Shown piece by piece: positions 391 to 41,703 of a stretch of 64,000 bases of DNA. The position numbers were made by a program, and so were the translations under genes. The stretch is from Agrococcus pavilionensis RW1 (GTDB lineage Bacteria; Actinomycetota; Actinomycetes; Actinomycetales; Microbacteriaceae): positions 1 to 64,000 of the forward strand of contig NZ_ASHR01000024.1 in the NCBI RefSeq assembly GCF_000400485.1, written 5' to 3'. Position 1 is the stretch's first letter; each line of letters opens with the position of its first letter. The notes under the pieces are model-generated. The model searched no databases, was not told the DNA's origin, and worked only from the letters and a program-made list of their open reading frames with translations.

Positions 391-1785
391 TCAGAGATTG
401 ATCGGCTGACCGAGGACTCCGTGCGCCGCCTCGAGGACGGCCTCGCTCATCGACGGGTGGACATGCACGTTCCGCGCGATCTCCGCAGCCGAGATCTCGT
501 ACTGCGCGGCCAGCGTCAGCTCGGGCAACAGCTCCGAGACTTCCGCACCGACAAGATGGGCGCCGAGCAGCTCACCGTGCTGCGGTTCGGCGATCAGCTT
601 GACGAACCCCTCTGGAGCGCCGAGCGCGTGGGCGCGGCCGCTGGCGGCAAGGGGGAAGCGCGAGACAACGATGGCTCCCACCTCGGTTCGGGCCTGCTCC
701 TCCGTGAGCCCGAAGCTCGCCACCTGTGGGGTGCTGAATACTGCGCGCGGCAGTATTCGGTAGTCGGTGATAGGTGTCGTGGGGGCGGACGCGATGGACT
801 CGGCTGCCACCATGCCTTGGGCTTCTGCGACGTGGGCGAGCTGCAGCTTGGCGGTGACGTCGCCGATCGCCCAGACGTTTGACGCGCTCGTTCGCATGGA
901 GTCGTCGATCTCGATCGCGCCGCGCGGCGTGCATTGCACGCCCACGGCGTCGAGACCAAGCGCCGCACTGTTCGGCCGGAAGCCGATCGCCACCAGGACG
1001 GTGTCGGCTGCGATGGTCCGGGACAGGCCGTCGTGGTCGACGACGACCGAAGTTCCATCCCGGCCATCCGCGATCTCTTGCACAGTCGCGCCGGTCACGA
1101 TCGTCACTCCTCGGGCCGACAGGGCCTTCTCGAGCGCGATCGCGACTTCCGCATCCTCATTCGGCAACAGCCGAGGTTGCGCCTCGACAAGGGTGACGGA
1201 CGTGCCGAACGAGGAGAGGAGGGTCGCGAACTCCACTCCGATGGCACCTCCGCCCACGATGACGATCGATGGCGGCGGAGCGTCGCGCATGATGAGCGCC
1301 TCGTAGGTGACGACGCGGTCGGACCGATTGATGCCGGTCAGCATCGCCGGCGTCGCGCCGGTCGCGACGATCGCGTCGCCGAAGCGCAGCGCGCGACGGC
1401 CGCCATCGTTGAGCACCACGTCGATCGTCCGTGCGTCGCGAAAGCGGCCCTTGCCGTGCAGTTCCACGATGCCGTGCTTCCGCATCAAGTAGTGGACGCC
1501 CTTCACCCGGCCATCCGCGACCTCTCGGCTGCGAGCGAAAGCCACCCCATAGTCAACGGTCATCTCACCGCGCAGGCCGAAGCGATCGCGGTGCACGGTG
1601 ACGAGATCGGCGATCTCGGCATGGCGGAGCAGCGCCTTCGTCGGGATGCACCCGATGTTGAGACATACCCCTCCCCACATGGAAGGCTCCACGATGGCGA
1701 CCGAGCGTCCGAGCTGCGCCGCTCGGATCGCCGCTGTGTATCCTCCTGGACCAGCCCCGAGCACCACGACGTCGAAGCGCTCCAC
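391..1785 (-). CDS. lpdA: Dihydrolipoyl dehydrogenase (E3)
   Basis: This 464-residue flavoprotein reoxidises the dihydrolipoyl arm of the E2 protein encoded upstream and passes electrons through FAD to NAD+. The FAD-binding GAGPGG motif is at residues 10-15. The redox disulfide is Cys41/Cys46 in GGVCLNIGCIPTK. A second dinucleotide motif (GGGAIGVEF) follows mid-protein, and the catalytic HVHPSMSE...E motif is near the C-terminus. The length is normal for the family. I chose the GTG at 1785 because it lies one base after the stop of the E1 gene and begins directly at the Rossmann strand; longer upstream frames run through E1. It is last in the E2-E1-E3 operon. Confidence 0.95.
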   Translation of the reverse strand: MERFDVVVLGAGPGGYTAAIRAAQLGRSVAIVEPSMWGGVCLNIGCIPTKALLRHAEIADLVTVHRDRFGLRGEMTVDYGVAFARSREVADGRVKGVHYLMRKHGIVELHGKGRFRDARTIDVVLNDGGRRALRFGDAIVATGATPAMLTGINRSDRVVTYEALIMRDAPPPSIVIVGGGAIGVEFATLLSSFGTSVTLVEAQPRLLPNEDAEVAIALEKALSARGVTIVTGATVQEIADGRDGTSVVVDHDGLSRTIAADTVLVAIGFRPNSAALGLDAVGVQCTPRGAIEIDDSMRTSASNVWAIGDVTAKLQLAHVAEAQGMVAAESIASAPTTPITDYRILPRAVFSTPQVASFGLTEEQARTEVGAIVVSRFPLAASGRAHALGAPEGFVKLIAEPQHGELLGAHLVGAEVSELLPELTLAAQYEISAAEIARNVHVHPSMSEAVLEAAHGVLGQPINL

Positions 1786-1786
1786 G

Positions 1787-4255
1787 TCAGAGTCCCAGCG
1801 CCGAATCCGACGGCACGGCCCAACCGCCGCGGCCGGGCTGCATGACATGACCCGACAGCGGCAGGATGCGCTCGTGCACCGCGTCGAGGATGTCGTCCGC
1901 CGTGACGAAGTACTCCCACTCGAGCTCGGCCGGCGGTGCGATCCAGTTGCGAGCACCCAGCACCGTGACGGGGCCGTCCAGGTCGTCGAAGGCCTCGGCT
2001 GTGACCGTCGTGGCGACCGTATGCAGCCAGGAACCTCGTAGATTCGCGTCCGAGGCGCACAGCAGCCTGCCCGTCTTTCGGACGGACTCGAGCAGCATGT
2101 CGTACTCGAACGGGACCAACGATCGTGCGTCGATGAGCTCCGCCTCGATGCCGTATTGCTCGTGCAGGCGCTTTGCGGCTTCGAGCGCGCGATAGAGCGT
2201 TGCGCCAACGGTGAGGATGGTCAGGTCGTCACCGCGACGGACGAGATTCGGGACGCCGATGGGCGTCGGCAGCGCATCAACGGGAACGCCCTCGGGATGC
2301 ACGACTTCAGGCTGGTCGTAGAGCCGCTGGCTCTCGAAGAAGAGCACTGGATCGTTCCCCCGCAGCGCGGAGATCAGCAAGCCCTTCGCGTCCCTGGCAG
2401 TCGCCGGGAAGAGCACCTTCAGTCCGGGCACGGTCGTCGCCATCGACGACCAGTCTTGGGAGTGCTGCGCACCGTACTTCGCGCCAACCGAGATGCGCAC
2501 GACCATCGGCAGTTGCACGAGTCCCCCCGACATCGGTTGCCACTTCGCCATCTGGTTGAAGAGCTCGTCTCCCGCGCGACCGATGAAGTCGGCATACATC
2601 AACTCGACGAGTGGTCGCCCTCCGGCCAGCGCGAACCCGACGCCCGCTCCGATGATGGCGGCTTCCGAGATCGGACTGTTGAACAGGCGGTGGCGGGGCA
2701 GGAACTCGGTCAGCCCGCGGTAGACCCCGAAGGAGCCGCCCCAATCCCGGTTCTCCTCGCCCCAGAGCGCGATGCGATCGTCCGCCGCGGTGGTGTGGAC
2801 GATCGCCTCGAAGATGGCGTCGCGGAAGGTGACCGCCTTGGATCCCGGCATCGGCGCACCGTCCGCCACGCCGATGCGAGACTTCTTGCGGATCGCCTGC
2901 AGGTGCGGAAGGTCGGCCTCCGCAACCGAGGTCTCCCCTGCGGATGCCTCCGCAGGATCGGCGGACGTGCTGTTGAACGTCAGTCCTGCCATGACCTCGG
3001 GTTCATCTCGCAGTCGCATACGAGGCGAGACGCGGTCGTCGATGGCGACCTCGAGCGCAGCTCGCACCGTCTGCTCGGCCCAGGCCTTCAGCGCGCTCTG
3101 CCGATCGCCGTCCACGACGCCCTCGTCGACGAGCCTGCCGAAGTATCGCTCGATGGGGTCTGCGGCTGCCCAGCGGTCGAGCTCTTCCTTGGTGCGGTAC
3201 GAGCTCGCGTCGCTGGGTGAGTGTCCCGAGAGCCGGTATGTCTGGCAGTCGATCAGTACGGGTCCTGTGCCGGCCTCGATATGCTCGCGAGCCTGACGCA
3301 TGGCGTCGATCACGGCAAACGGGTCGTTGCCGTCGATGGATTGCGCGTGCATCCGCTCGGGATTGACGCCGGCGCCGATCCTCGCGACGCGCTCGAATCC
3401 CATCGTCTCGCCGATGGGTTGGCCGCCCATCCCGTAGAAGTTGTTGACGATGAAGAAGATCACCGGCAACCCGCCGCTGTGCGCTTCGTCCATCAGCCCC
3501 CGCAACTGCCCCATGGAAGCGAAGTTGAACGACTCCCAGACCGGTCCGGTTCCCGTGGATGCATCCCCGATGCTGGCAACCACGAGCCCGTCCTCGTTGC
3601 GGAGGCGGTTGTAGAGGGCGGCTCCCGTTGCGAGCGGTGCCGATCCACCGACGATTGCATTGTTCGGGTAGATGCCGAGCGGCGGGAAGAATGCGTGCAT
3701 GCTGCCGCCCAGACCTCGGTTGAAGCCGGTTCGGCGCCCGAAGGTTTCGGCCGCCATGCCGTACATGAGGTAGTTGATCGCGAGCTGCTGCGGATCATCG
3801 TCCTCTAGGAGATCGCGGACCACTCGCCATGTCTCGCCACCGGCCCAACGGGTGAGGTCCTCGCGGAGCGCGTTGGGCTCCGCCTTCGCGATCGCGGAGA
3901 GTCCCTTGGCGACCACCTCACCGTGGCTGCGGTGGCTGCCGAACACCTTGTCGCGGGGGTCGAGCGTGAAGGCCTGCCCGACCGCTTGCGCCTCCTGTCC
4001 GATCGAGAGGTGCGCCGGACCGAGGTGGTTGTAGGCCACGCCCAGGTACGCGCCCTCGCGCTTGATCGAGTTCAGCATGAGCTCGAACTCACGCACCAGC
4101 AGCATGTCTCGACCGATCCGCTCGAGCGCGGCATCGCCATACCGCCGCCGCTCCTCTGCGAGAGGCGCTTCGTATGCGTTGACCGGTATCGATCCCAGCT
4201 TGAGCTCCCCGGACCGCCGGATGTCGTCGGGATCGATTGGCAGTTCCTTGACCAT
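1787..4255 (-). CDS. Fused E1 alpha/beta subunit of a thiamine-dependent 2-oxo-acid (or acetoin-type) dehydrogenase
   Basis: The 822-residue protein joins E1-alpha (about residues 40-430) and E1-beta (about 490-822), which are separate chains in most branched-chain, pyruvate and acetoin complexes. The alpha half has the GLGGSMH motif near 181-187 and a thiamine-diphosphate motif beginning GDAS at 230 and ending NN at 271-272. GDA replaces the usual GDG, and the spacing to NN is longer than the usual 25-30 residues. The beta half has the ISEAAIIGAGVG and GAQHSQD regions typical of transketolase-like pyrimidine domains. The enzyme would decarboxylate a 2-oxo acid, or cleave an acyloin or diketone, and hand the acyl group to lipoyl-E2. 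The substrate cannot be read from the sequence. The start lies 22 bases after the E2 stop. Confidence 0.85.
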   Translation of the reverse strand: MVKELPIDPDDIRRSGELKLGSIPVNAYEAPLAEERRRYGDAALERIGRDMLLVREFELMLNSIKREGAYLGVAYNHLGPAHLSIGQEAQAVGQAFTLDPRDKVFGSHRSHGEVVAKGLSAIAKAEPNALREDLTRWAGGETWRVVRDLLEDDDPQQLAINYLMYGMAAETFGRRTGFNRGLGGSMHAFFPPLGIYPNNAIVGGSAPLATGAALYNRLRNEDGLVVASIGDASTGTGPVWESFNFASMGQLRGLMDEAHSGGLPVIFFIVNNFYGMGGQPIGETMGFERVARIGAGVNPERMHAQSIDGNDPFAVIDAMRQAREHIEAGTGPVLIDCQTYRLSGHSPSDASSYRTKEELDRWAAADPIERYFGRLVDEGVVDGDRQSALKAWAEQTVRAALEVAIDDRVSPRMRLRDEPEVMAGLTFNSTSADPAEASAGETSVAEADLPHLQAIRKKSRIGVADGAPMPGSKAVTFRDAIFEAIVHTTAADDRIALWGEENRDWGGSFGVYRGLTEFLPRHRLFNSPISEAAIIGAGVGFALAGGRPLVELMYADFIGRAGDELFNQMAKWQPMSGGLVQLPMVVRISVGAKYGAQHSQDWSSMATTVPGLKVLFPATARDAKGLLISALRGNDPVLFFESQRLYDQPEVVHPEGVPVDALPTPIGVPNLVRRGDDLTILTVGATLYRALEAAKRLHEQYGIEAELIDARSLVPFEYDMLLESVRKTGRLLCASDANLRGSWLHTVATTVTAEAFDDLDGPVTVLGARNWIAPPAELEWEYFVTADDILDAVHERILPLSGHVMQPGRGGWAVPSDSALGL

Positions 4256-4277
4256 GGTGTCCTCGTCTCGGGTCGGC

Positions 4278-5522
4278 TCAGAAGGCGTCGAGCACGTCGA
4301 CGTGCTCGATCGCGGTTGCGATGTCGGCGAGCGCGCGAGCGGCGGCGCCGCCGTCGAGCGCACGATGATCGAAGGTGAGAGACAGCGGCAGCAGCATGCG
4401 ACCGTCGCCGTCCCGATGTGCGGCCCCGATCCCGAGGATGCCGTTCTGCGGCGCATTCAGGACGGGCGTGAACCAGTGCACGCCGAGCCCTCCGAGGTTC
4501 GAAACGGTGAAGGTGCCCTCGGCCATCTCGTCGGGCTGCAACCGGCCTCCGCGTGCTCGCTCGATCGCCGCGTGCACCTGGCTCGCTAGCTCACCGAGCT
4601 TGAGTCGATGCGCGTCGCGGATCACCGGCACGAAGAGGCCCCGCTCCGTGTCGACCGCGAAGCCGAGGTTCACCCGGTCGAATTGCCGAATGCCATCCCA
4701 GTCGAACCGCGAGTTCAGCACGGGGTGCCCGACGACGGCGCGCGCGGTGGCGTAGAGCAGGAGATCGTTGAGGGTCACCCGCGGAGCGGATGCGGCCCCA
4801 GGACTCGTTCGAATCCGATCCAGCCACTGCAACATCGAGTCAGCGTTCGCGTAGCGGGTCAGCGTGACCTGCGCCGCCTCCGAAAGCGATGCGTGCATGC
4901 GCTGGGCTGTGACCTTGCGAACGCCTCTCACCGGGACGACGGCACTCGGCTGGATGACCACACTCTGCACCGGTGGAGCGTCGGTCGCGGTCGTCGCGTC
5001 GACCGCTGCCCGCTCGACGTCTCCGGCAAGGATTCTCCCGAGCGGTCCGCTGCCGTCGACCTCTGTCAGGTCGACGCCGAGCGCACTCGCGACGCGCCTC
5101 GCGCGGGGTGATGCGGCGATCCGCGCGGGCCGCGCGGCGTCCGGTGCCGGTACGGGCGGCTCCGGTGAAGGCTCCGCCGGTTCCTCGCCGCCCATGGTCG
5201 ACTCAGGGGGGAGCGACCGCCCATGGGCTCGAGCTTCCGCGGACAGTTCGTGCGTGTGGGTCTCGGCGGGGTGAGTCGCCTCCCCCGGTTCCCCGATAAG
5301 CCCCACAACCGAGAACTCCGCGACGTCATCGCCGGGCTTCGCGCGCTGCTCGAGGACGGTGCCGTCCACAGGCGCCACAACCTCGAGCGTCGACTTCGCC
5401 GTCTCGATCGTCAGCACGGGCTCGCCCTCGCGGGTCGAGCCGCCCACATCGACGTGCCACTCGACGAGCACCGCGTCTTCGCCCGCGTTCCCCGTAGTAG
5501 GTATGCGTATCTCCGTGGCCAT
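4278..5522 (-). CDS. Dihydrolipoamide acyltransferase (E2)
   Basis: The 414-residue core protein of the complex has one N-terminal lipoyl domain (lipoyl-lysine Lys43 in ETAKSTLEV). A Pro/Ala-rich linker follows, then a peripheral-subunit-binding domain around residues 130-170 (ASPRARRVASALGVDL...GPLGRILAGDV) and a C-terminal CoA-dependent acyltransferase domain. The catalytic motif DHRALDGG places His at about 386 and Asp at about 390. It transfers the acyl group from E1 to CoA. The ATG at 5522 has a strong GGGGGAG ribosome site and starts exactly at the lipoyl domain. It is first gene of the operon, with the palindromic operator 33-44 bases upstream. Lipoylation enzymes are not in the window. 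Confidence 0.93.
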   Translation of the reverse strand: MATEIRIPTTGNAGEDAVLVEWHVDVGGSTREGEPVLTIETAKSTLEVVAPVDGTVLEQRAKPGDDVAEFSVVGLIGEPGEATHPAETHTHELSAEARAHGRSLPPESTMGGEEPAEPSPEPPVPAPDAARPARIAASPRARRVASALGVDLTEVDGSGPLGRILAGDVERAAVDATTATDAPPVQSVVIQPSAVVPVRGVRKVTAQRMHASLSEAAQVTLTRYANADSMLQWLDRIRTSPGAASAPRVTLNDLLLYATARAVVGHPVLNSRFDWDGIRQFDRVNLGFAVDTERGLFVPVIRDAHRLKLGELASQVHAAIERARGGRLQPDEMAEGTFTVSNLGGLGVHWFTPVLNAPQNGILGIGAAHRDGDGRMLLPLSLTFDHRALDGGAAARALADIATAIEHVDVLDAF

Positions 5523-5554
5523 GTGGCTCCCCCGCCCAGCTCTCTTTGCGCTAC

Positions 5555-5587
5555 GCTCATTTGAGCACCGTGAGCACCAATGAGCGC
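5555..5587. promoter_or_regulatory. Probable SorC-family operator, copy 1
   Basis: GCTCA-TT-TGAGC (5555-5566) is an inverted repeat directly upstream of the E2 gene, in the gap to the divergent regulator. Further TGAGC half-sites start at 5571 and 5581; the last one (TGAGCGC) is 19 bases after the TGAGCAC at 5562. The reverse complement of the palindrome recurs before the kinase gene. Binding by the adjacent regulator is inferred. Confidence 0.7.
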
Positions 5588-5636
5588 CCCGGGAGCATAC
5601 ACATCGGCGCAAAGCCGGTAAAGGCGAGGAGAGCTG

Positions 5637-6593
5637 ATGGCAGACCGGGCTCGGTCGTTGCGACTCCAGGGCACGTTGGTGGAGGCCGCCCGAGTAGCGC
5701 GCCGGTTCTACCTACACGACAAGACCAAGAGCGAGATCGCGGACGAGCTCGGCCTCTCGCGCTTCAAGGTCGCGCGCCTGCTCGACCTCGCTCGGGCGGA
5801 AGGACTCGTACACATCTCCATCCAGCTCCCGACCGCAGATGACCTCGAGCTCGCGGATCGGCTCGCGGCACGCTGGAACCTGCGACGAGCGGTCGTCGTC
5901 CGCAGCGACGATCTCGATGCGGAATCGATTGCGGCGGCGATCGGACAGTCGGCCGCGGAGCACCTCGCGGCGATCCTCGGACCGGAGGACCTGCTCGGCA
6001 TCGCATGGGGTGCGAGCTTGACCGCGATGACGGCCGCGTTCCGCGCGGAAGCCACCGGCGCAGACGTCGTGCAGATCGTCGGGGGTACCCGGTCGGCGGA
6101 CCGCATGCTCAGCGGCGCCGAGATCGTGCGCCGAGTGGCCCTGCGGACAGGCGGCCGAGCGTATCCGCTCCACGCCCCATTCGTCGTCGGCAGCGCCGAG
6201 ATGGCCAGCGACCTGCGCAACGACGCTTCACTCGCCGAGGTGGTGAGCAGATTCCCCCGGGTGACGATCGCGATGTTCGGCATCGGTGCCTGGGACCCGG
6301 CTAACTCCGCCCTCTTCAACGAGCTGCCCCACCACGATCGGGCGGCCCTGCGTGAGGCCGGCGTCGCCGCCGACGTCTGCGGGATCCCGGTCGACGCGCA
6401 TGGCGAAGTCATCCGCCCCGAGATCGCGCAACGCGTCGTCGGCATGTCGCTCGATGAGTTGCGCGGCGTCCCCGAGACGGTCGCGGTCGCCGCGGGGTCC
6501 GGCAAGGTCGGGGCAATCCGCGCCGCGTTGCGAACGAACGCAATCTCCACGTTGATCACTGATTCCGAGACGGCTGATCAGCTGCTCAAATGA
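5637..6593 (+). CDS. SorC/DeoR-type sugar-binding transcriptional regulator
   Basis: The 318-residue protein has an N-terminal helix-turn-helix (about residues 25-60, KSEIADELGLSRFKVARLLDLARAEG) and a SorC-type sugar-phosphate-binding domain for the remainder (GIAWGASLTAM, IVGGTRSADRM, MFGIGAWDP). SorC proteins such as LsrR, SorC and DeoR bind a phosphorylated ligand made by a pathway kinase, which fits the FGGY kinase next door. The ATG at 5637 follows GAGGAG. It is divergent from the dehydrogenase operon and points toward the kinase/transporter operon. Its stop codon lies inside the second operator palindrome, which would tie its own 3' end to control of the next transcript. Confidence 0.9.
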   Translation: MADRARSLRLQGTLVEAARVARRFYLHDKTKSEIADELGLSRFKVARLLDLARAEGLVHISIQLPTADDLELADRLAARWNLRRAVVVRSDDLDAESIAAAIGQSAAEHLAAILGPEDLLGIAWGASLTAMTAAFRAEATGADVVQIVGGTRSADRMLSGAEIVRRVALRTGGRAYPLHAPFVVGSAEMASDLRNDASLAEVVSRFPRVTIAMFGIGAWDPANSALFNELPHHDRAALREAGVAADVCGIPVDAHGEVIRPEIAQRVVGMSLDELRGVPETVAVAAGSGKVGAIRAALRTNAISTLITDSETADQLLK

Positions 6594-6616
6594 GCACCAT
6601 GTTGCGCTTTGAGCGC
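6584..6616. promoter_or_regulatory. Probable SorC-family operator, copy 2
   Basis: GCTCA-AA-TGAGC (6584-6595) is the exact reverse complement of the 5555 palindrome and overlaps the regulator stop codon. A TGAGCGC half-site starts at 6610, again exactly 19 bases after the TGAGCAC at 6591, inside a GCGCT-3-AGCGC inverted repeat (6604-6616). Another TGAGC starts at 6632. The site lies 70-100 bases before the kinase start codon. Confidence 0.7.
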
Positions 6617-6682
6617 TTCGCCGTGCATCATCTGAGCCACGCGGGCTTGCGCCCGACCGACCGGCACCGATGGAGGTGACCA

Positions 6683-8179
6683 GTGACCGTGCACCTCGGC
6701 ATCGACCTGGGCACGTCCAGCGTGAAGTGCGTCCTTCTGAGTGAGTCGGGCGAGGTCACCGCCGCCTCGCAGGTCGCCTACGGGATCGACCGGCCGCATC
6801 CCGGCTGGGCAGAGCAGGACCCGGAGCTGTGGTGGAGCGCAACCGTCGATGCCGTGCGCGAAGTGCTCGTACGGGGTGGCGCGCTCCCCTCGAGCATCGG
6901 CCTGAGCGGCCAGATGCACGGGATCGTGCTCCTGGACGAGCGCGGCCTCCCGGTCCGGCCAGCCATCATCTGGCCGGACGCGCGCACGCGTGCCGAGGCC
7001 GAGCTCTGGCGAACCGCAGTGGGCGACGCGCAAGTCACCTCGCGGTGCGGGATGCCGATTGCCTCGGGCCTGGCTGGTCTGAGTCTCACATGGCTCTCGA
7101 AGCATGAGCCCGCCGCCCTCGCCGCCGCCTCAAGCGTCCTGCAGCCGAAGGACTGGATCCGCTTCCGATTGACCGGCGCCCTCGCCCTCGAGCCGACCGA
7201 TGCGTGCGCCACCCTGCTCTTCTCGATTGTGGACGAGCAGCCGGTGCCCGAACTGCTCGCGCTAGCCGGCGTGAGCCGCGAGCAGCTGCCTCCGATGATG
7301 GCGACGCAAAGCGTCGCGGGCGAGGTAACCCGACGCGCGGCTGACGCCACTGGCCTGCGCCCAGGGACGCCAGTCGCCGCCGGCGGCGGCGATCAGGCGA
7401 TGGCCGCGATAGCGCTCGGACTCGACCGCCCCGAGCGAGCGGCGATATCCATCAGCTCGAGCGGCACGGCAGTCGTGCCGTTGGAGTTAGGAACGCGCAG
7501 CATCGCCACGCTCAGCCGCACACATCACGTGATCGCCGGAGCTCATCCCGGGAGCCGCATGGCGATGGGCGTGGTGCTCGCTGCGGGCCTCGCGACGAGG
7601 TGGCTAGCTGAAGACCTGTTACAGGGCCTGGCGTCTGAGGGCGAGCTGCTCGAGGCCGCAGACGCGATCCTGCCGGGCTCAGAAGGCTTGACCGCGAACC
7701 CTCACCTGGGAGGTCTCCGGACCCCGGTGGTGGACGGCCGCCCGCAGGGCGCATTCCTAGGGCTGGGTTTCCATCACCGACCTGCGCACCTGATGCGGGC
7801 CGTCGTCGATGGCGTGGCACTCTCTCTGGCTCAATCGGTGCTGGCCACGCCAGCGCGTTCGCCCGTGAAGGAGATCGTCCTCTCAGGCGGCGGTAGCAGA
7901 TTCGCCGTCTGGCATCGCGCGATCGCCGACGCATCGGGGCTGCCCGTCGTGCTCTCTGCCGACGTTGATCACTCACCGCTCGGGGCGGCGCTCGTCGGTG
8001 CCATCGCTGCAGGGCAACCCGTCGATTTCGACAGTGGCGCACGGATCCGAGGTCGAGTCGAGCCTGATCCCGTCCGCGCGGCTGCCTACCGCAGGGTTGC
8101 GGCGACCGCCGCCGGTTGCGGTGCTCAACCCATGGTGTCGCTCGACACCCCGCCAATCTCGGAGGTGACGTCCGCGTGA
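6683..8179 (+). CDS. FGGY-family carbohydrate kinase (xylulokinase-like)
   Basis: The 498-residue protein has the FGGY N-terminal phosphate-binding motif GIDLGTSS (Asp8), the substrate-side GLSGQMHGIVLLD, the WPDAR loop typical of xylulokinase-like members, and C-terminal ATP-site motifs (GGGDQAMAAIALG, ISSSGTAV, SGGGSR). The family phosphorylates pentuloses, other ketoses, and in LsrK the autoinducer-2 precursor. The true substrate is unknown. The GTG at 6683 follows TGGAGGTGACC. It is first gene of a four-gene operon with a ribose-type importer and ends in a GTGA overlap with the ATPase gene. The likely role is to trap the imported sugar and make the ligand for the SorC regulator. Confidence 0.88.
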   Translation: MTVHLGIDLGTSSVKCVLLSESGEVTAASQVAYGIDRPHPGWAEQDPELWWSATVDAVREVLVRGGALPSSIGLSGQMHGIVLLDERGLPVRPAIIWPDARTRAEAELWRTAVGDAQVTSRCGMPIASGLAGLSLTWLSKHEPAALAAASSVLQPKDWIRFRLTGALALEPTDACATLLFSIVDEQPVPELLALAGVSREQLPPMMATQSVAGEVTRRAADATGLRPGTPVAAGGGDQAMAAIALGLDRPERAAISISSSGTAVVPLELGTRSIATLSRTHHVIAGAHPGSRMAMGVVLAAGLATRWLAEDLLQGLASEGELLEAADAILPGSEGLTANPHLGGLRTPVVDGRPQGAFLGLGFHHRPAHLMRAVVDGVALSLAQSVLATPARSPVKEIVLSGGGSRFAVWHRAIADASGLPVVLSADVDHSPLGAALVGAIAAGQPVDFDSGARIRGRVEPDPVRAAAYRRVAATAAGCGAQPMVSLDTPPISEVTSA

Positions 8180-8958
8180 CGACCATTGACCCGTCGACCG
8201 CGGACGTAGTGCTTCGCGTCACCGGCGTCACCAAGCACTACGGCCACGTCCAGGCGCTGCGAGGCGTCGACATGGAGGTGCGACGCGGCGAAGTGGTCGG
8301 CCTCGTCGGCGACAACGGAGCCGGCAAGTCGACGCTGATCGGAGTGCTCTCGGGAGCGACGACCCCCACGGAAGGCGCGGTGGAGTTTGAAGGCGAGCCC
8401 GTCTCGCTCTCCAGCCCGTCGCACGCGCGAGATCTCGGCATCGAGACCGTGTACCAGGATCTAGCGCTCGCCCTCGACCTGCCCATCTGGGCGAACCTGC
8501 ACCTCGGCCGAGAGCAGCGCAGGCCGGGGCTGCTCGGCGCACTGGGATTCCTCGACAAGAAAGCGATGATCGCGAGCGCCGAAGAAGAGTTGCGGACGAC
8601 GCGGATACGGATCGGTTCCGTCGACGCCCGGACGAGCGCTCTCTCGGGTGGGCAACGTCAGGCGATCGCCGTTGCTCGCGCCACCGCGCGCGGATCGAAG
8701 CTCGTCCTGATGGACGAGCCGACCGCCGCACTGGGCGTTGAGCAGCAGCACCGCGTGGGCGAGCTCGTGCGGCACGTCGCGGATCGTGACGTGCCGGTCA
8801 TCCTCATCAGCCACAACCTCCCGCAGGTGAGAGAACTGTGCGATCGCGTGCTCGTCATGTACCGCGGCCGCATCGTCGCGGAACTCGATCCAGCGATCGA
8901 GGGTGTCGAGTCGATGATCCGGTGGATCACCGGCGCAGCACTGGAGAGCGAGCGATGA
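8176..8958 (+). CDS. Sugar ABC transporter ATP-binding protein, single-domain
   Basis: The 260-residue ATPase energises the sugar importer. It has Walker A GDNGAGKST at 45-53, the signature LSGGQRQAIAVARA, Walker B LVLMDEPTAALG and the switch His in LISHNL. It carries only one nucleotide-binding domain, like FrcA, whereas RbsA- and LsrA-type proteins carry two. The GTG start overlaps the kinase stop (GTGA) and the end overlaps the permease start (ATGA), so translation is probably coupled. Confidence 0.93.
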   Translation: MTTIDPSTADVVLRVTGVTKHYGHVQALRGVDMEVRRGEVVGLVGDNGAGKSTLIGVLSGATTPTEGAVEFEGEPVSLSSPSHARDLGIETVYQDLALALDLPIWANLHLGREQRRPGLLGALGFLDKKAMIASAEEELRTTRIRIGSVDARTSALSGGQRQAIAVARATARGSKLVLMDEPTAALGVEQQHRVGELVRHVADRDVPVILISHNLPQVRELCDRVLVMYRGRIVAELDPAIEGVESMIRWITGAALESER

Positions 8959-10049
8959 GCGCAAAGCGCCTATTGATGGGACGTAAGCAGCCCGTCGAGA
9001 CCACCATGATGACGACGTTGGACGACGCGGAGCTCGATCGAACCCGACGTCCCAGGACTCCGCTGCAAGGCTTCGGAGCGTTTCTCGGAAAAGGTGACGG
9101 CGACGTAGCCCGAGTACTCGTCCTGCTCCTCATCGTGGTCGTCATCGGCCTGGTCGCCCCGAACTTCATCTCCAAAGCGAGTTGGATGGCGCTGTCGCAG
9201 ACCGCCACCGTGGTCGCGCTCCTGGCCATCGGGCAGACCTTCGTGATCATCACCGGAGGCATCGACCTCTCGGTCGGGGCGGTGATGGCGTGCTCCGCGG
9301 TCATCGGCGCGGTGGTCATGCGGGAGCTGGCTGCTGGAGGCGCTGACCCATCGATCGCGATCCTCGTCGGCCTCGTGACGTCGCTGGGGATCGGCTCGCT
9401 CGCAGGTCTCATCAACGGGCTCATCATCACCAAGCTGCGGATCACTCCCTTCATCGTGACGCTGGGCATGCTGAGCGTCGCGACAGGAAGCATGAACTTG
9501 ATCTCCGGCGGCGCAGAAATCGTCGGGCTGCCCCCGCAGCTCGGCTCGATCGGCAATACCCCGCTGGGCGGATGGTTCACCGTCCCCGTGCTCGTCACGA
9601 TCCTGGTTGCGGTCGTCGCAGGAGTCGCGCTCTCTCAGACCCGCTTCGGCCTACGAACGTTCGCCGTAGGCAGCAACCAAGGCGCCGCTCGGCGCGTAGG
9701 CATCGGGGTCGACTGGCACATCGTCCGCGTGTACGTGTTTGCGGGGTTCCTCGCGGCGGTGGCTGGGTTCCTACTCACCTCCAGATTCGTGAGCGCGAGC
9801 ACCATGGCAGGGACCGGCATGGAGCTGTCCTCGATCGCTGCGGCGGTCATCGGCGGCGCCAGCCTGATGGGTGGGCGCGGCTCGATCCTCGGCACGATGG
9901 TCGGCGCGCTCATCATGGCCGCCTTGCAGATCGGACTCATCATTGCGGGCGTCGCCTCGTTCTGGCAGACGATCGCCATCGGCATCATCACCGTCGCGGC
10001 CGTCTACGGCGACCAAATCCGGATCAAGTACTCGGGCGAGCGCTCCTAG
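8955..10049 (+). CDS. Sugar ABC transporter permease, RbsC-like
   Basis: The 364-residue membrane protein has about nine hydrophobic segments after a roughly 50-residue cytoplasmic leader. It carries the family hallmarks QTFVIITGGIDLSVGAVMA and GGASLMGGRGSILGTMVGAL. It forms the channel of the importer, presumably as a homodimer, since there is no second permease gene here. The ATG at 8955 overlaps the ATPase stop. An in-frame ATG at 9007 would shorten the unusually long N-terminus, so the start is less certain than the identity. Confidence 0.92.
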   Translation: MSAKRLLMGRKQPVETTMMTTLDDAELDRTRRPRTPLQGFGAFLGKGDGDVARVLVLLLIVVVIGLVAPNFISKASWMALSQTATVVALLAIGQTFVIITGGIDLSVGAVMACSAVIGAVVMRELAAGGADPSIAILVGLVTSLGIGSLAGLINGLIITKLRITPFIVTLGMLSVATGSMNLISGGAEIVGLPPQLGSIGNTPLGGWFTVPVLVTILVAVVAGVALSQTRFGLRTFAVGSNQGAARRVGIGVDWHIVRVYVFAGFLAAVAGFLLTSRFVSASTMAGTGMELSSIAAAVIGGASLMGGRGSILGTMVGALIMAALQIGLIIAGVASFWQTIAIGIITVAAVYGDQIRIKYSGERS

Positions 10050-10102
10050 CGATCACCCGCATCGGCCACGGAGCGACGGCGCTCCAAGGGAAGGGAACAA
10101 CC

Positions 10103-11122
10103 ATGCTGAAGAAGCACAATTCGAGGACGGCGATCGGCCTGGCATCGTCGGCCTTCGTCCTCCTTGCAACCGTCGCCTGCTCGGGCGCGACTGCAACCGA
10201 ACCCTCCGAGGGCGCGGACGCGCCAGCAACAGGCGAGGACTTCACAATTGCTCTCGTGCCGGGCATGACCACACATCCGGCGTACCAGACGATGTATTGC
10301 GGGGCACTGCAGGCGGCGGAGGAGCTCGGTGTCACGGTCGATTTCCAAGGCGCGAACGCATGGGATCCCGCGCAGCAGCTGCCCGTGGTGCAGTCGCTGC
10401 TTGCCACCTCGCCGGATGCGCTGCTGCTCGTGCCGTCGGATTCGTCAGCGCTGCGCCCCGCAGTCGATCAGTTCCTCTCGGCCGATATCCCGGTCATCAC
10501 CGTCGACACGGGGCTCGAGGACACGAGTGGTCTCACGGCCGAGATCATGTCGGACAACGAGCAGGGCGGAGGCGCGGCTGCCCAGGCGCTCGGAGAGGCG
10601 ATCGGCGGCGAGGGCACGGTCGCCATCATCTCGGGCGTCCCTGGCGCGACGACCGACATCGCACGCGTGGACGGCTTCCGCGCGGTGATGGAGGAGCAGT
10701 TCCCGAACGTGACCCTGCTCGAGCCGGAGTACTCCCGCTCGGTCGTCGCTACCGCTGAGAGCCAGGTCCAGTCGCTCATGCTCGCCCACGACGACTTGGC
10801 CGGCGTCTTCGGAGTGAACGGCAACTCAGCGACGGGCGCGGCCAACGCCGTCGCGAACGCCGGCGCCGACATCGTCGTGGCGGGCTACGACGCGGAGCCG
10901 GGCACCGTCGAGCAGCTGCGCTCGGGAAACATCAACATCCTCGTGGTCCAGGACTTCATCCAGGAGGGACAGCTCGCGGTGCAGTACGCATACGCTGCGC
11001 TGACCGGAGATGAGTCCGCTATCGAGACACCGCGGGTGCTCGAGAACATCATCGCCACGACGGAGAACGCCGACGACCCGGAGGTCTCGAAGTACTTCTA
11101 CATCCCGGAGTGCCAGGCGTAG
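10103..11122 (+). CDS. Sugar ABC transporter substrate-binding lipoprotein
   Basis: The 339-residue protein is a periplasmic-binding-protein-like type 1 domain (FTIALVPGMTTHPAYQTM...). Its signal sequence ends near Cys26 in LLATVACSG, a slightly atypical lipobox with Thr at -3. Cys in MYCGALQAAEELG and the near-terminal Cys in IPECQA could form the disulfide seen in some relatives. It delivers the sugar to the permease. It has its own GGGAAGGGAAC-type ribosome site 54 bases after the permease, and is last in the operon, followed by a strong hairpin. Confidence 0.92.
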   Translation: MLKKHNSRTAIGLASSAFVLLATVACSGATATEPSEGADAPATGEDFTIALVPGMTTHPAYQTMYCGALQAAEELGVTVDFQGANAWDPAQQLPVVQSLLATSPDALLLVPSDSSALRPAVDQFLSADIPVITVDTGLEDTSGLTAEIMSDNEQGGGAAAQALGEAIGGEGTVAIISGVPGATTDIARVDGFRAVMEEQFPNVTLLEPEYSRSVVATAESQVQSLMLAHDDLAGVFGVNGNSATGAANAVANAGADIVVAGYDAEPGTVEQLRSGNINILVVQDFIQEGQLAVQYAYAALTGDESAIETPRVLENIIATTENADDPEVSKYFYIPECQA

Positions 11123-30260: not shown

Positions 30261-31856
30261 TCAGAGCGCCGCGACCGCCGCGGCCTCGACCGCGAGCCCG
30301 GCGCGGTAGCGCTCGAGGTACGCCGCGAAGCCCGCGACGTCGTCGGGGTCGGGCTCGACCGTCGACTGCGCGGCGTCCGCGAAGACGGCCTCGTCGAGGT
30401 ACGCCGAGAGGCTCCGCGCGTCGCCGCCCGCGGCCGCGCGCGCGAACGCGGCGAGGACCGCGATGCCCCATGCGCCGCCCTCCGACGCCGTCTCCCCCAC
30501 CGACACGGGCGCGCGGAGCGCCCCGGCGAGGAAGCGCTGCGCGACGCCCGCCGTGCGGAACATGCCCCCGTGCGCGAACATGCGGTCGAGCCGCACGCCC
30601 TCCTCGTCGAGCACGCGCATGCCGAGCGCGAGCGTGCCGAAGGCGCCGTAGAGGTGCGCGCGCATGAGGTTCGCGAGCGTCAGCCGGCTCTCGGGCGTGC
30701 GCACGACCAGCGGCCGACCCTCGTCGAGGCCCGCGATCGGCTCGCCCGCGACGTGGTTGTAGGCGAGCAGCCCGCCGGCATCGGCCTCCCCCGCGAGCGC
30801 CTCGCGGAAGAGCGCGTCGAAGACGGCGTCGTCGTCGATCGGTGCGCCGGCGGCCTCGGCGAAGCGCGCGAACACGTGCGCCCACGCGGCGAGCTCGCTC
30901 GCGCCGTTGTTGCAGTGCACCATCGCGACGGGGTCTCCCGCGGGCGTCGCGACGAGGTCGAGCTCTGCGTGCACGCGCTCGAGCGGCCGCTCGAGCACGA
31001 CCATCGCGAAGATGCTCGTGCCCGCGCTCACGTTGCCCGTGCGGGGCGCGACCGCGTTCGTCGCGACCATGCCGGTACCGGCGTCGCCCTCCGGTGCGCA
31101 CAGCGGCACACCCGGCTGCAGCGCGCCGCTCGGGTCGAGGAGCAGCGCGCCCTCGGGCGTGAGCTCGCCCGCCGGCTCGCCCGCGCGGAGCACCGTCGGC
31201 AGCAGCTCGGCGACGCTCGCGACCGGGAGCCGGCCGCCGACGAGCTCGTCGTAGCGCGCGACGAGCTCCGGGTCGTAGTCGCCGCCCGTAGCGTCGATGG
31301 GGAACATGCCGGATGCGTCGCCGACGCCGAGCACGGCACGTCCGGTGAGGGCGCGGTGCACGTAGCCCGCGAGGGTCGTGATCGAGCGGACCCGCGGCAC
31401 GTGCGGCTCGTCGTCGAGGATCGCCTGGTGGAGGTGCGCGATCGACCAGCGCAGCGGGATGTTGACGCCGAAGGCCTCGGTGAGCTCGGCCGCGGCGCGG
31501 CCGGTCGACGTGTTGCGCCAGGTGCGGAAGGGCGCGAGCAGCTCGCCCGCCTCGTCGAAGGCGAGGTAGCCGTGCATCATGCCCGAGACGCCGATCGCGC
31601 CGAGCGTGCGCAGCTCGACGCCGTGCCGCGCCAGGACGTCGGCGCGGAGCTCGGCGAACGCCGCCTGCACGCCGGCCCACGCGTCGTCGAGCGCGTAGGT
31701 CCAGGTGCGCTCCTCGAAGCGGTTCTCCCACGCGTGGGAGCCGACCGCGAGCACGCGCGCGGGATCGGCCGCGTCGACGATGCACGCCTTGATGCGCGTC
31801 GAGCCCAGCTCGATGCCGAGCGCCGTGCGGCCCGCCTCGATCGCCTCGGCGCTCAT
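30261..31856 (-). CDS. FGGY-family pentulose kinase (L-ribulokinase-like)
   Basis: The 531-residue protein has the FGGY phosphate-binding motif GIELGSTRIKA near its start. It also has SGMMHGYLAFDEAGELLAPFRTWRNT, the family-specific ALTGRAVLGVGDASGMFPID, and C-terminal ATP-site motifs (NVSAGTSIFAM, AHGGMFRTAGVAQRFLAGAL). Relatives sit beside AraD-type epimerases and are called ribulokinase or xylulokinase-like. Here it overlaps araD by four bases (ATGA), supporting phosphorylation of L-ribulose or L-xylulose to the epimerase substrate. It is last in the leftward nine-gene operon. Confidence 0.85.
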   Translation of the reverse strand: MSAEAIEAGRTALGIELGSTRIKACIVDAADPARVLAVGSHAWENRFEERTWTYALDDAWAGVQAAFAELRADVLARHGVELRTLGAIGVSGMMHGYLAFDEAGELLAPFRTWRNTSTGRAAAELTEAFGVNIPLRWSIAHLHQAILDDEPHVPRVRSITTLAGYVHRALTGRAVLGVGDASGMFPIDATGGDYDPELVARYDELVGGRLPVASVAELLPTVLRAGEPAGELTPEGALLLDPSGALQPGVPLCAPEGDAGTGMVATNAVAPRTGNVSAGTSIFAMVVLERPLERVHAELDLVATPAGDPVAMVHCNNGASELAAWAHVFARFAEAAGAPIDDDAVFDALFREALAGEADAGGLLAYNHVAGEPIAGLDEGRPLVVRTPESRLTLANLMRAHLYGAFGTLALGMRVLDEEGVRLDRMFAHGGMFRTAGVAQRFLAGALRAPVSVGETASEGGAWGIAVLAAFARAAAGGDARSLSAYLDEAVFADAAQSTVEPDPDDVAGFAAYLERYRAGLAVEAAAVAAL

Positions 31857-32575
31857 CGGTCGCCCTGCTGCGTTCCGGGCCGCTGGCCGTAGACGTGCTG
31901 GTACCGCTCGTGCAGCCGGTCGATGTCGGTCGGCGCGATGGGGATGAGGGGCCCTGCCTCGCGCGCGAGGTGGACCGTGCGGGCGACGTCCTCGACCATG
32001 ACCGCCGCCTTCACCGCATCCCTCGCCGTCCTGCCGATCGTGAACGGACCGTGGTTCTGCATGAGCACGGCGCGCGAGCGGTGCTCGCGGAGCGTCTCGA
32101 CGATGCCGCGGCCGATCGAGTCGTCGCCGATGATCGCGAACGGCCCGACGGGGATCGGCCCGCCGAACTCGTCCGCCATCGCGGTGAGCACGCACGGGAT
32201 CTCCTCGCCGCGCGCCGCCCACGCGGTCGCGTAGGTCGAGTGCGTGTGCACGACGCCGCCGACCTCGGGCATGTGCCGGTAGACGTAGGCGTGCGCGGCG
32301 GTGTCGCTCGAGGGGCTCGCCTCGCTCCCGGCGGTGCCGGGCACGACGGCACCGTCGAGGTCGCACACGATCATCCGCTCGGGCGTCAGCTCGTCGTAGT
32401 CGACGCCCGAGGGCTTGATGACGAAGAGGTCGGCGCCCGGCACGCGGCCCGAGACGTTGCCGCCCGTCCACACCACGAGTCCGTAGCGCACGAGCTCGCG
32501 GTGGAGCCGCGCGACGTCCTCGCGCACGGCGTCGACGGCCGCGAGCGTCGTCGCGTCGAGCGCAGTCGCGGCCAT
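31853..32575 (-). CDS. araD: L-ribulose-5-phosphate 4-epimerase
   Basis: The 240-residue zinc enzyme interconverts L-ribulose-5-phosphate and D-xylulose-5-phosphate, linking L-pentoses to the pentose phosphate pathway. It has GGNVSGR and KPSGV phosphate-site motifs, SSDTAAHAYVYRHMPEVGGVVHTHSTYATAW (zinc His pair), and LMQNHGPFTIG. Size and motifs fit AraD better than fuculose aldolases. It starts two bases after the preceding epimerase gene. No L-arabinose isomerase gene is in view. Confidence 0.9.
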   Translation of the reverse strand: MAATALDATTLAAVDAVREDVARLHRELVRYGLVVWTGGNVSGRVPGADLFVIKPSGVDYDELTPERMIVCDLDGAVVPGTAGSEASPSSDTAAHAYVYRHMPEVGGVVHTHSTYATAWAARGEEIPCVLTAMADEFGGPIPVGPFAIIGDDSIGRGIVETLREHRSRAVLMQNHGPFTIGRTARDAVKAAVMVEDVARTVHLAREAGPLIPIAPTDIDRLHERYQHVYGQRPGTQQGDR

Positions 32576-32577
32576 GC

Positions 32578-33447
32578 TCAGTGGAGCGCGATCGTCTCGA
32601 CCGAGCGCAGCTGGTCGCGGATGAAGCGGTTGGCGTGCGCGGCGAGGTCGTCGGAGTCCTCCCACAGGTTGCGCCAGATGCCGAGCGTGTTCGAGAGCGA
32701 CTCCGAGACGACGGCGCTCGAGAACGACTCGAAGACGATCGGGCCGTCGTAGCCGAGCCGCGCGAGGCCGCGGAAGAAGGAGCCGAAGTCGACCGACCCG
32801 GTGCCGAGGTAGCCGCGGTGGCTCTCGCCGATGTGCACGTAGCGCAGCCGCTCGCCCGCGTCGAGGACGGGCTCGAGCATCCCCGACTCCTCGATGTTCA
32901 TGTGGTACGTGTCGAGGTGCAGGTGCACGTTGTCGTGCCCGATCTCCTCGAGGAAGCGCAGGCCGCCGCGCGCGGTGTTCGCGATGTTCGTCTCGTAGCG
33001 GTTGACGATCTCGAGCGAGAGCGTCACCCCTGCCGCGGCCGCGCGGTCGGCGAGGCGGCGGAGCGCCGCGGCGGAGTTCGCGCGGCCCGCCTCGGTCGCC
33101 GGGGTCGTGTACTTCTGCATCGCCGAGTAGATGACGCCGCAGAGGTGCGCTCCGCCCGCCTCGGCGACGACGTCGATCGCCCGCTCGAGGAGGGTCTCGC
33201 CCTCGCGGCTCACCGCGGCGTCCTCGCTCGAGAGGTCGTGCGCGGCGTCGAGCCCGAGGCTCGACGTCATCGCGACGCCGTGGTCGTCGAGCATGCGGCG
33301 CACGAGCGCGCCGTCGATCGCGAACGGATCCATGAGCGGCAGCTCGAGCAGGTCGAACCCCGCCTGCTGGGTGCCGGCGATGGCGGTCTGGAGGCCCGCC
33401 TCGTCGAACGTGCCGGTGAAGACGAGGCCGTGGACGCCGATCTGCAT
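32578..33447 (-). CDS. Ketose 3-epimerase (D-tagatose/D-psicose/L-ribulose 3-epimerase family)
   Basis: The 289-residue TIM-barrel protein has the metal and catalytic motifs of ketose 3-epimerases: LEIVNRYETNIANTA (catalytic Glu), HLDTYHMNIEE (Asp/His), HIGESHRGYLGTG and IVFESFS (second catalytic Glu). It would epimerise a free or phosphorylated ketose at C3, for example L-xylulose to L-ribulose. AAGGAG lies six bases before the ATG. Its place between an aldolase and araD suggests it brings an unusual ketose into the L-ribulose branch. Confidence 0.87.
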   Translation of the reverse strand: MQIGVHGLVFTGTFDEAGLQTAIAGTQQAGFDLLELPLMDPFAIDGALVRRMLDDHGVAMTSSLGLDAAHDLSSEDAAVSREGETLLERAIDVVAEAGGAHLCGVIYSAMQKYTTPATEAGRANSAAALRRLADRAAAAGVTLSLEIVNRYETNIANTARGGLRFLEEIGHDNVHLHLDTYHMNIEESGMLEPVLDAGERLRYVHIGESHRGYLGTGSVDFGSFFRGLARLGYDGPIVFESFSSAVVSESLSNTLGIWRNLWEDSDDLAAHANRFIRDQLRSVETIALH

Positions 33448-33469
33448 GATTGCTCCTTCGCTGGGTGGT

Positions 33470-34240
33470 CTATCGCGCCGCGTCGAGGATCGCGCGGCGC
33501 ACGTGCTCGTCGTCCCGACCGTCGATGCGGTCGAGGACGGCGTCGGGGAGGAAGGTCGGCTCGCCCACCGAGAGCGCCCCGACGAGGATGCGCGCGACCT
33601 TGTCGGCCATCTCGGTGATGCGGAGGCACTCGGCCGGCGTCGCGCCGATCGCGAAGATGCCGTGGTTCCGCATCCACGCGACCTTCGGGAGCGCGCCGTG
33701 CCGGTCGGCGAAGTCGCGCAGCTCGTCGCGCATGAGCCGACCGAGGCTCAGGCCCGGGTCGACGTAGGGCACGAGCAGCGTCTCGGTACCGAGCACGACG
33801 ATCTGGTCGGGGAAGAGCGCACCGGCGGCGAGCAGCCCTGCCCGGTCGGAGCACAGCACCGAGTTCGCCGCGATGGGGTGCGTGTGGCAGGCGGCGCCCG
33901 CGCCGGAGCTCAGCACGACCGCGTGCAGGAGCGCCTCGACGCTCGGCCGCTTCGCGTCCGGGTCGACGCGCGAGGTCATGAGCGCCTCCGCGACGCGCGC
34001 GTCTCCCGCACCGCCCTCGAACGCGGCCGGGTCGTCGAGCAGCTCGAGGATCGGCGCGAACCAGCACTCGACGAGGTCGTCGGGCCCCGACGCCGCGAGC
34101 GACGAGCCCGTGGCCTTCACGAGCATCCGCTCGTCGTCGAGCCTCGCCGAGACGTTGCCCTCGGCGAGGATGACGAGCTCGCGCTGCGGCTCGCCCACGG
34201 CGTGCGCGAGCCGCAGCAGGTCGTCGCGGGGATCGGTCAC
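33470..34240 (-). CDS. Class II aldolase/adducin family protein
   Basis: The 256-residue protein has the fold and order of motifs of class II aldolases: EGNVSAR (normally GGNxSxR), KATGSSL, a Glu in SVEALLHAVV, the zinc pair in CHTHPIAANSVLC, and MRNHGIFAIGA. It is distinct from the rhamnulose-phosphate aldolase domain encoded at 41704. It may cleave a second sugar phosphate, or act on another pathway intermediate. The GTG start overlaps the permease stop (GTGA). Confidence 0.8.
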   Translation of the reverse strand: MTDPRDDLLRLAHAVGEPQRELVILAEGNVSARLDDERMLVKATGSSLAASGPDDLVECWFAPILELLDDPAAFEGGAGDARVAEALMTSRVDPDAKRPSVEALLHAVVLSSGAGAACHTHPIAANSVLCSDRAGLLAAGALFPDQIVVLGTETLLVPYVDPGLSLGRLMRDELRDFADRHGALPKVAWMRNHGIFAIGATPAECLRITEMADKVARILVGALSVGEPTFLPDAVLDRIDGRDDEHVRRAILDAAR

Positions 34241-37936: not shown

Positions 37937-37975
37937 GGTGCTCCTCGTGGTCGCCGGCGCGGAGGCCGGCGGGCT

Positions 37976-38037
37976 GCCTGCGGGCCGGCCCGCAGGCCGG
38001 AGGGGGTGCCGGGGCGCGGCGCGCGCCGCGCCCCGGC
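37976..38037. terminator. Two perfect tandem palindromes between binding protein and ATPase genes
   Basis: GCCTGCGGGCC/GGCCCGCAGGC (37976-37997) and a second palindrome with 15-base arms (38008-38037, left arm GCCGGGGCGCGGCGC) lie inside the operon just after the binding-protein stop. Either could cause partial termination or protect the upstream mRNA, raising binding-protein output. Confidence 0.65.
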
Positions 38038-38054
38038 GTCAGTCGATCGGGCGA

Positions 38055-39943: not shown

Positions 39944-40120
39944 AGCGTCTCCCTTGTCGGTGATGGTGGTGACAGTACGCATCCGAAAGTCGCTTCGCAA
40001 GTCACCGATACCGAATCGCAACCTTTGCGCTTGCGTTCGAAACTCCGACGGGGCATGCTGGCGGGGCGCGACCGGAGCCGAGGCGCCCGATCGCGATCGT
40101 CGAGGAGGACAGGAGCGAGC
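39944..40120. promoter_or_regulatory. Divergent promoter region of the rhamnose locus
   Basis: This 177-base gap must hold the promoters and operator of both rhamnose transcripts. It contains related short words (CGAAAGTCGCTTCGCAAG and GCTTGCGTTCGAAACTC, at about 39984-40051) with TTCG cores in both orientations, which could be DeoR-type sites. An AGGAGGAC-like ribosome site precedes rhaM. Confidence 0.45.
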
Positions 40121-40510: not shown

Positions 40511-40511
40511 C

Positions 40512-41672: not shown

Positions 41673-41703
41673 CCGCGCCGACCCCCGAGACGACGGAGAC
41701 GAC

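Follow-up and report, generated by a model that had tools for sequence, protein, structure and literature searches.

Several described systems resemble in part the locus at positions 391-11122 of the window analysed here, that is, the first 64,000 nucleotides of contig NZ_ASHR01000024.1 of Agrococcus pavilionensis RW1. The Lsr autoinducer-2 (AI-2) system, a pathway that also ends in acetyl-CoA, brings together a SorC-type regulator, an FGGY kinase and a CUT2 sugar importer, all of which have counterparts at this locus. Acetoin dehydrogenase (AcoAB-AcoC-AcoL) is built on the same logic of E1, E2 and E3 components as the complex encoded beside them, and its thiamine diphosphate (ThDP)-dependent E1 has in common with that of the locus a THRGHG-like histidine motif and a GGSMH sequence; this enzyme, too, is reportedly named in the title of a 1986 paper by Yokota and Sasajima, in the context of 1-deoxy-D-xylulose formation. 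A third point of comparison is 1-deoxy-D-xylulose 5-phosphate (DXP) synthase (DXS), which makes the bond that the complex would break. According to one report, pyruvate dehydrogenase (PDH) joins pyruvate and D-glyceraldehyde to form 1-deoxy-D-xylulose, and XylB phosphorylates 1-deoxy-D-xylulose (PMC3424233). Finally, a published prediction (PMC8579813) places an acetoin-type complex (Athe_0702-4) within a sugar regulon, that of RhaR2 in Caldicellulosiruptor bescii, a system that differs from the present one in its DeoR-family regulator and its rhamnose and lactaldehyde context.

The Agrococcus locus combines an acetoin-like dehydrogenase complex with a sugar kinase and importer in what appears to be a single regulon. 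Chances are about even, in our estimation, that this SorC-controlled regulon serves ketose catabolism, with the complex cleaving a ketose phosphate in the manner of an acyloin.

Organization of the locus

Eight genes were confirmed between positions 391 and 11122, with Pfam and NCBIfam agreeing on their classes, and they include every part recognized in the initial annotation, namely a SorC regulator, an FGGY kinase and an ATP-binding cassette (ABC) importer, together with a fused E1, an E2 and an E3 divergent from the regulator. The minus strand carries E2-E1-E3 and the plus strand SorC, kinase, ATPase, permease and binding protein, the two sets diverging over 114 bases. From E3 through to the binding protein, the intergenic gaps measure 1, 22, 114, 89, -4, -4 and 53 bases, with kinase and ATPase, and ATPase and permease, overlapping by 4 bases each. 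Because the window starts at contig base 1, the E2-E1-E3 operon cannot be followed to its end, and genes past E3 may be missing.

The E1 (1787-4255, minus strand, 822 amino acids) is a ThDP enzyme in which alpha and beta subunits are fused into a single chain, an alpha-type domain (PF00676) being joined to beta-type domains (PF02779, PF02780), and it carries the acetoin-like active-site motif GSHRSHGEVVAKG, an assignment made from motif and tree. The E2 (4278-5522, minus strand, 414 amino acids) is an acyltransferase with one lipoyl, one E3-binding and one catalytic domain (PF00364, PF02817, PF00198), and the E3 (391-1785, minus strand, 464 amino acids) is a dihydrolipoyl dehydrogenase (NCBIfam TIGR01350, 499.2 bits against a cut-off of 408.8). 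Catalytic signatures, identified by eye, include the GDA...NN ThDP motif and the glutamate of NSPISE in E1, the lipoyl lysine of ETAKS and the HRALDG sequence in E2, and the CLNIGC redox motif in E3. The set of ThDP E1, lipoyl E2 and FAD E3 that characterizes 2-oxoacid and acyloin dehydrogenase complexes is complete, catalytic residues included.

On the plus strand, the SorC-family regulator (5637-6593; PF04198, 190.6 bits, cut-off 27) is the sole PF04198 match in the genome, which has five FGGY matches. The FGGY sugar kinase (6683-8179, plus strand, 498 amino acids) has a DLGTS signature by eye and is xylulokinase-like, falling short of the XylB equivalog cut-off (TIGR01312, 358.7 against 380.25 bits). 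The CUT2 importer comprises a single-domain ATPase (8176-8958, plus strand, 260 amino acids; PF00005) with one Walker A and one LSGGQ motif, a permease (8955-10049, plus strand, 364 amino acids; PF02653), and a sugar-binding lipoprotein (10103-11122, plus strand, 339 amino acids; PF13407, 189.8 bits) with a lipobox-like signal by eye. Among solved structures, the binding protein comes closest to the chains 5dkv (158 bits) and 4wut (116 bits), both labelled ribose-type, the ligands of which are presumably tagatose and fructose.

Relationship of the E1 component to acetoin dehydrogenase

At the position of human AYRAHG, a tyrosine is found in the reference E1s of PDH and branched-chain dehydrogenase (BCDH), as it is in both further E1 sets of the genome. 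The same position reads THRGHG in five of five Aco references, three of which are backed by their operons and two (L122 and L124) by similarity and annotation. The operon of L120 includes, besides AcoC and LipA, an NAD-kinase-like (AcoX) gene and a sigma-54 regulator, that of L121 an NAD-kinase-like gene and AcoC, and that of L123 a sigma-54 regulator and LpdA. In the new family the position reads SHRSHG or close to it, with HRSH in all 85 aligned sequences (HRSHG in 80, HRSHS in 5); the histidine of the acetoin-type motif is kept, but the motif is not identical to the THRGHG of Aco. In addition, the beta half of the window E1 and AcoB have ELM--DF-G and AQHSQ stretches in common, and the window E1 shares 33-37% identity with the five Aco references, as against 28% with four PDH/BCDH references. 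The suggestion in the initial annotation that the complex belongs to the acetoin or acyloin class is borne out by the active-site motif.

In a maximum-likelihood tree of 36 rows, midpoint-rooted only, one branch (100/100) sets off the 24 family E1 rows, the five Aco rows not being among them, and a second (100/100) sets off the four PDH/BCDH rows. The Aco rows belong to neither group, their mutual order being unsure and several branches long. In this tree the window E1 neither groups with the four PDH/BCDH rows, whose tyrosine motif it lacks, nor lies within the AcoAB group. Because motif and identity are near Aco, and the tree group is separate, the family is best described, as judged from sequence, as acetoin-like but not Aco. 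Other features also distinguish the locus from acetoin dehydrogenase, including the fusion of its E1, the 2-oxoacid-dehydrogenase catalytic domain of its E2, the presence of SorC, a sugar importer and a kinase, and the lack of AcoR and AcoX.

Some family members are paired with a different E2. Three alphaproteobacterial loci were tested, and in each a lipoyl protein of 77-80 residues and an alpha/beta hydrolase take the place of the E2; both proteins match portions of AcoC, with the three hydrolases being 29-34% identical to the AcoC hydrolase domain; the members with this split arrangement also lie beside SorC. Such an AcoC-like E2 is a further pointer to acyloin cleavage.

A dedicated dehydrogenase for pyruvate or another 2-oxoacid, co-induced with the sugar operon to burn sugar-derived pyruvate, would have the same domain make-up. 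The best NCBIfam models for E1 and E2 are indeed those of PDH, all under cut-off, with the E2 scoring best with acetyl-transferring E2 models, and pdhABCD of Lactobacillus sakei is among the genes strongly up-regulated on ribose (PMC3146418). However, the genome already encodes AceE and two PDH/BCDH-type E1-E2 sets elsewhere, and this redundancy, the acetoin-like histidine motif, the position of the E1 outside the PDH/BCDH group and the AcoC-like E2 of the three alphaproteobacterial members tested make such a role unlikely. Identity with the ordinary, housekeeping PDH or BCDH complex of the cell, an outcome that the initial annotation had allowed for, was judged unlikely and rejected on the presence of AceE and the other E1 sets and on the separate grouping of the E1.

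Predicted operators and a probable shared regulator

When the seven close loci that have SorC, window included, were aligned across the E2/SorC gap, they revealed a fixed GCTC-N4-GAGC-N15-GAGC pattern, a form of which is present in all seven; six end in N14-TGAGC and one, L010, in CGAGC. The final spacing was taken from this alignment, a first guess having been dropped for giving chance-level matches only. In the window, GCTC-N4-GAGC-N14-TGAGC is found with 0 mismatches in the E2/SorC gap (5555-5585, plus strand) and again upstream of the kinase-transporter genes (6584-6614, plus strand), where the predicted operator overlaps the SorC stop codon and lies directly before the kinase gene. These are exactly the two strict TGAGC sites in the 2,878,403-base genome, the reversed control giving 0 and 1.

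In eight genomes, the strict form occurs at nine sites, seven of them at the locus, and at none in the genome of L010 (G001), whose locus site ends in CGAGC. With the base before GAGC left free, the pattern has 1-7 matches in each of seven relatives, overall no more than the reversed control, and these are mostly chance. Outside the close loci, a one-mismatch copy is present upstream of the CUT2 genes on a Rhizobium plasmid with a SorC of 50% identity, with none in 10 shuffles. A one-mismatch copy also lies just upstream of the kinase gene in L010, which is 3.5 kb from E1 and separated from it by genes resembling, by eye, a transketolase and a ROK regulator. The transketolase appears by eye to be full length (L010 12462-14555) and stands between the E1 operon and the kinase-importer genes.

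The notion that the two operons are linked, which was put forward in the initial annotation, is strengthened by the predicted regulator site that they have in common. Because copies of the predicted operator precede both halves, are rare genome-wide, and are kept in relatives, it is well supported by sequence that the two half-operons form a predicted regulon under one regulator.

Conservation in close relatives

The eight closest loci are those of the window, L009, L010, L025 and L029 (Herbiconiux), L026 (Microcella), L027 (Salinibacterium) and L028 (from a record named Streptomyces), with Herbiconiux, Microcella and Salinibacterium belonging to the Microbacteriaceae. Within 8 kb of E1, SorC, FGGY and CUT2 permease genes are each found in 7/8 of these loci, bearing out the expectation that the operons co-occur, with the FGGY count being 6/8 on a careful reading of the match in L026. 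L010 has orthologues of the kinase (53% identity), ATPase (78%), permease (71%) and binding protein (72%). The kinases of L025, L029 and L036 score above the XylB equivalog cut-off. E3 adjoins E1 in three of the eight (window, L026, L028). Since there are few matches per genome (1-4 for SorC and 5-12 for FGGY), nearness by chance has a probability below about 6% per genome by our own arithmetic, with the eight loci sharing ancestry and so not being independent.

Four alphaproteobacterial plasmids, picked among 16 listed with 50-54% identity, lend independent weight to this pattern: at no more than 8 kb from E1, SorC is present in 4/4, CUT2 in 3/4, and FGGY in 2/4. In Rhizobium sp. RCAM05350 (L114 18780-23916), the annotation splits both E1 and the FGGY kinase into two pieces, so that this plasmid copy looks decayed.

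The G+C content of the stretch is 67.7%, as against 71.1-73.6% in other 10.7-kb segments taken in 1-kb steps across the 64 kb, and an E1 match at 1e-80 occurs in 3/299 genomes of a family sample, own genome included, with no such match in five same-genus genomes listed in that sample. Because of this deviant composition and rarity, the locus looks like one that may have been acquired as an accessory element.

Comparison with the Lsr system

The initial annotation had equated the regulator, kinase and importer with the parts list of the Lsr system, a label that the individual proteins do not sustain. The binding protein has almost no resemblance to LsrB, with 20.1% identity and 39.7 bits to the E. 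coli protein and 43.5 of 384 bits to the NCBIfam model. The kinase scores 135.8 of 528 bits with the LsrK model, compared with 358.7 for the XylB model, and among E. coli proteins it is closer to XylB (208 bits) than to LsrK (130 bits). The regulator reaches 123.7 of 486 with the LsrR model, a DeoR-Bac model being higher at 183.5 of 420. The transporter layout also differs, with a single-domain ATPase and one permease where Lsr has the two-domain LsrA ATPase and two permeases. No match to LsrF or LsrG was found in the window, where alone LsrG was sought, and none to LsrF in the genome by a search run with no positive control. Another importer, at 35-39 kb of the window, scores higher with Lsr and RhaS proteins than does the importer of this locus. 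Thus, although a SorC-type regulator, an FGGY kinase and a CUT2 importer do occur together, it is highly improbable that the locus is an Lsr variant handling phospho-AI-2, and the AI-2 reading was rejected on kinase, binding protein and transporter layout.

Distribution and neighbourhoods of the E1 family

A scan of one genome per species over 84,980 species confirmed at least 479 relatives of the E1, of which the best 80, at 52-73% identity, were used. By record title, the hosts include Planctomycetota, Chloroflexota, Armatimonadota, Verrucomicrobia, Clostridia and Actinomycetes, and the records name the family only alpha-ketoacid dehydrogenase subunit alpha/beta. Neighbourhoods were counted over 95 loci, comprising the 80 from the species scan, the window, L009, L010, the four plasmids and eight loci from a phylum search; E1 was picked up in 92 of these (none in L085, L136 and L137), with L138-L140 (38-40% identity) and the shortest phylum-search contigs standing outside the count.

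Within 8 kb of E1, a SorC or DeoR regulator is present in 65/92 loci (SorC 13, DeoR 52), and in 34/48 loci that have at least 8 kb on both sides of E1, the window being outside the 48; regulator and kinase occur together in 18/92. None of these regulators or kinases was found in ten PDH, BCDH and Aco control loci, a weak control, as these loci are shorter (8-12 kb) and the profiles were seeded from family loci. Two types of neighbourhood can be discerned. The first has an FGGY kinase, RPE and a KpsF/GutQ-like SIS isomerase near E1 (L009, L025, where RPE is above its cut-off, L027 and L131), with L030 having SIS and FGGY. The second, assigned partly by eye, has DeoR, a class II aldolase or aldolase-SDR fusion, a Zn-type dehydrogenase, a PHP-like protein and rhamnose or fucose genes.

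The PHP-like protein occurs near E1 in 21/92 loci. Among the examples inspected (L083:4550-5842, L058:4881-6260 and the L058:3674-4822 region), no NCBIfam match was found in two copies and no Pfam match in one, and no NCBIfam model matched the third neighbour in L058. More distant THRxHG-type E1s, 37.5 and 34.9% identical, are encoded on an Arthrobacter plasmid (L127) and a Sinorhizobium plasmid (L128), along with a SorC-type regulator, ABC genes for a sugar and an aldolase of the class II fructose-bisphosphate type; L127 also has an FGGY kinase and a free lipoyl protein.

The second type of neighbourhood is suggestive of a different substrate, namely a small fragment of sugar breakdown (lactaldehyde, acetol or methylglyoxal from 6-deoxyhexoses) in place of a sugar phosphate. 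In Caldicellulosiruptor, the acetoin dehydrogenase homologue Athe_0702-4, within a DeoR-family regulon, is predicted in PMC8579813 to perform the last, lactaldehyde step of rhamnose catabolism. The 52 loci with DeoR fit this role, as do RhaD-type aldolase-SDR fusions and rhamnose or fucose isomerases seen by eye beside some members; rhamnulokinase is near E1 in a few (5/92). The window locus, however, has no aldolase, its kinase is XylB-like, and the lactaldehyde step is probably covered by a separate rhamnose set in the window, whose aldolase-dehydrogenase is above cut-off, because matching RhaEW enzymes oxidise lactaldehyde (PMC3870299). An action on such fragments is consequently rated improbable for the window complex, and L-fucose or lactaldehyde as a substrate of general validity is retained as an alternative.

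The separate L-rhamnose region spans positions 30261-45155 of the window and includes a RhaS-like CUT2 importer (35367-39227), an L-rhamnose isomerase and the RhaEW-type aldolase-dehydrogenase, both above cut-off, a rhamnulokinase match under cut-off, psicose-epimerase-like and L-ribulose-5-phosphate 4-epimerase-like proteins, and a weak XylB match. The psicose-3-epimerase-like protein (32578-33447), about 28 kb from the window E1, is 83% identical to one near SorC-E2-E1 in Microcella alkaliphila (L026), and because this copy lies in the separate rhamnose region, the Microcella neighbour is given little weight.

A proposed route of ketose cleavage

In the route that we propose for the Agrococcus regulon, the importer would take up a ketose, or a sugar that is turned into one, and the XylB-like kinase would phosphorylate the ketose at its far end, with the phosphorylated sugar relieving repression by SorC. 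The E1 would then attack C2 of the ketose phosphate through ThDP and break the C2-C3 bond, releasing an aldose phosphate, and the acyl remainder would be oxidised onto the lipoyl arm of E2 and passed to CoA, with E3 returning the electrons to NAD+. Should the ketose have a methyl group at C1, as in DXP, the products would be acetyl-CoA and glyceraldehyde 3-phosphate, and the cleavage would be the reverse of the bond formation catalysed by DXS, coupled to oxidation; this catabolic direction, tied to CoA and NAD+, is a proposal made here that sets the complex apart from DXS. An ordinary ketose would yield glycolyl-CoA.

A 1-deoxyketose such as DXP is a possible but tentative substrate, and a DXP-like C5 compound, which the initial annotation had also entertained, is our best guess among substrates as opposed to a result. 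In relatives, the vicinity of E1 includes C3 epimerases and isomerases of pentose phosphates, which would fit an enzyme that needs a given configuration at C3. Such enzymes are, at the same time, those of ordinary pentulose 5-phosphates, and together with the XylB-like kinase and the transketolase seen by eye in L010 they would suit C2-C3 cleavage of an ordinary ketose phosphate (e.g. xylulose 5-phosphate) to glycolyl-CoA or glycolate and glyceraldehyde 3-phosphate, an oxidative counterpart of phosphoketolase. Since ordinary sugars of this kind already enter the pentose phosphate pathway, little would presumably be gained, and the E2 scores best with acetyl-transferring models; we regard this variant as unlikely. 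That ordinary pentulose phosphates need no second outlet speaks for the deoxy form, whereas the KpsF/GutQ-like aldose-ketose isomerase, whose normal reaction a 1-deoxyketose could not undergo, counts against it.

Extended to the family, the proposal becomes more doubtful: that of a widespread, unrecognised group of fused E1s, spread over Actinomycetota, Planctomycetota, Chloroflexota, Clostridia and Rhizobiales, encoded for the most part next to sugar-type regulators, and which would be ketose-phosphate:CoA dehydrogenases splitting 1-deoxyketose phosphates (DXP or analogues) to acetyl-CoA and an aldose phosphate.

A number of observations weigh against ketose-phosphate cleavage, or against the evidence for it. 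The analysis turned up no substrate, ligand or activity for any family member, and no epimerase or isomerase lies beside the window locus itself. Among the close loci, L028 has neither SorC nor FGGY nearby, its kinase being of the PfkB type, and L026 lacks a CUT2 permease up to 8 kb from E1, its FGGY match being weak and split over two frames. Across the wider family, just 21/92 loci have one of the three kinase types sought at most 8 kb away, and many members are beside DeoR regulators and rhamnose- or fucose-type genes. As for the operator, about 0.9 one-mismatch sites would be expected by chance in the L010 stretch, and because such sites are this common the L010 copy is suggestive only, its position being what counts. 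If the last T is left free, a third exact match appears in the window outside the locus (32576-32606). This match, which ends in CGAGC, lies at the end of the psicose-epimerase-like gene, beside the next epimerase-like gene, and is probably due to chance.

Implications

In the open-licence literature, which excludes most subscription journals and was covered mostly by title and abstract, nothing was recognised on SorC-linked kinase-importer-E1 loci or on 1-deoxyketose catabolism. If the proposed cleavage of ketose phosphates is correct, an acetoin-type dehydrogenase complex would break sugars directly at the ketose bond and yield acyl-CoA and NADH with no passage through pyruvate, and a large family that bears only a generic subunit name would gain a function. 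Such a complex would also represent a disposal route for 1-deoxy sugars, and a catabolic counterpart of the DXS reaction.

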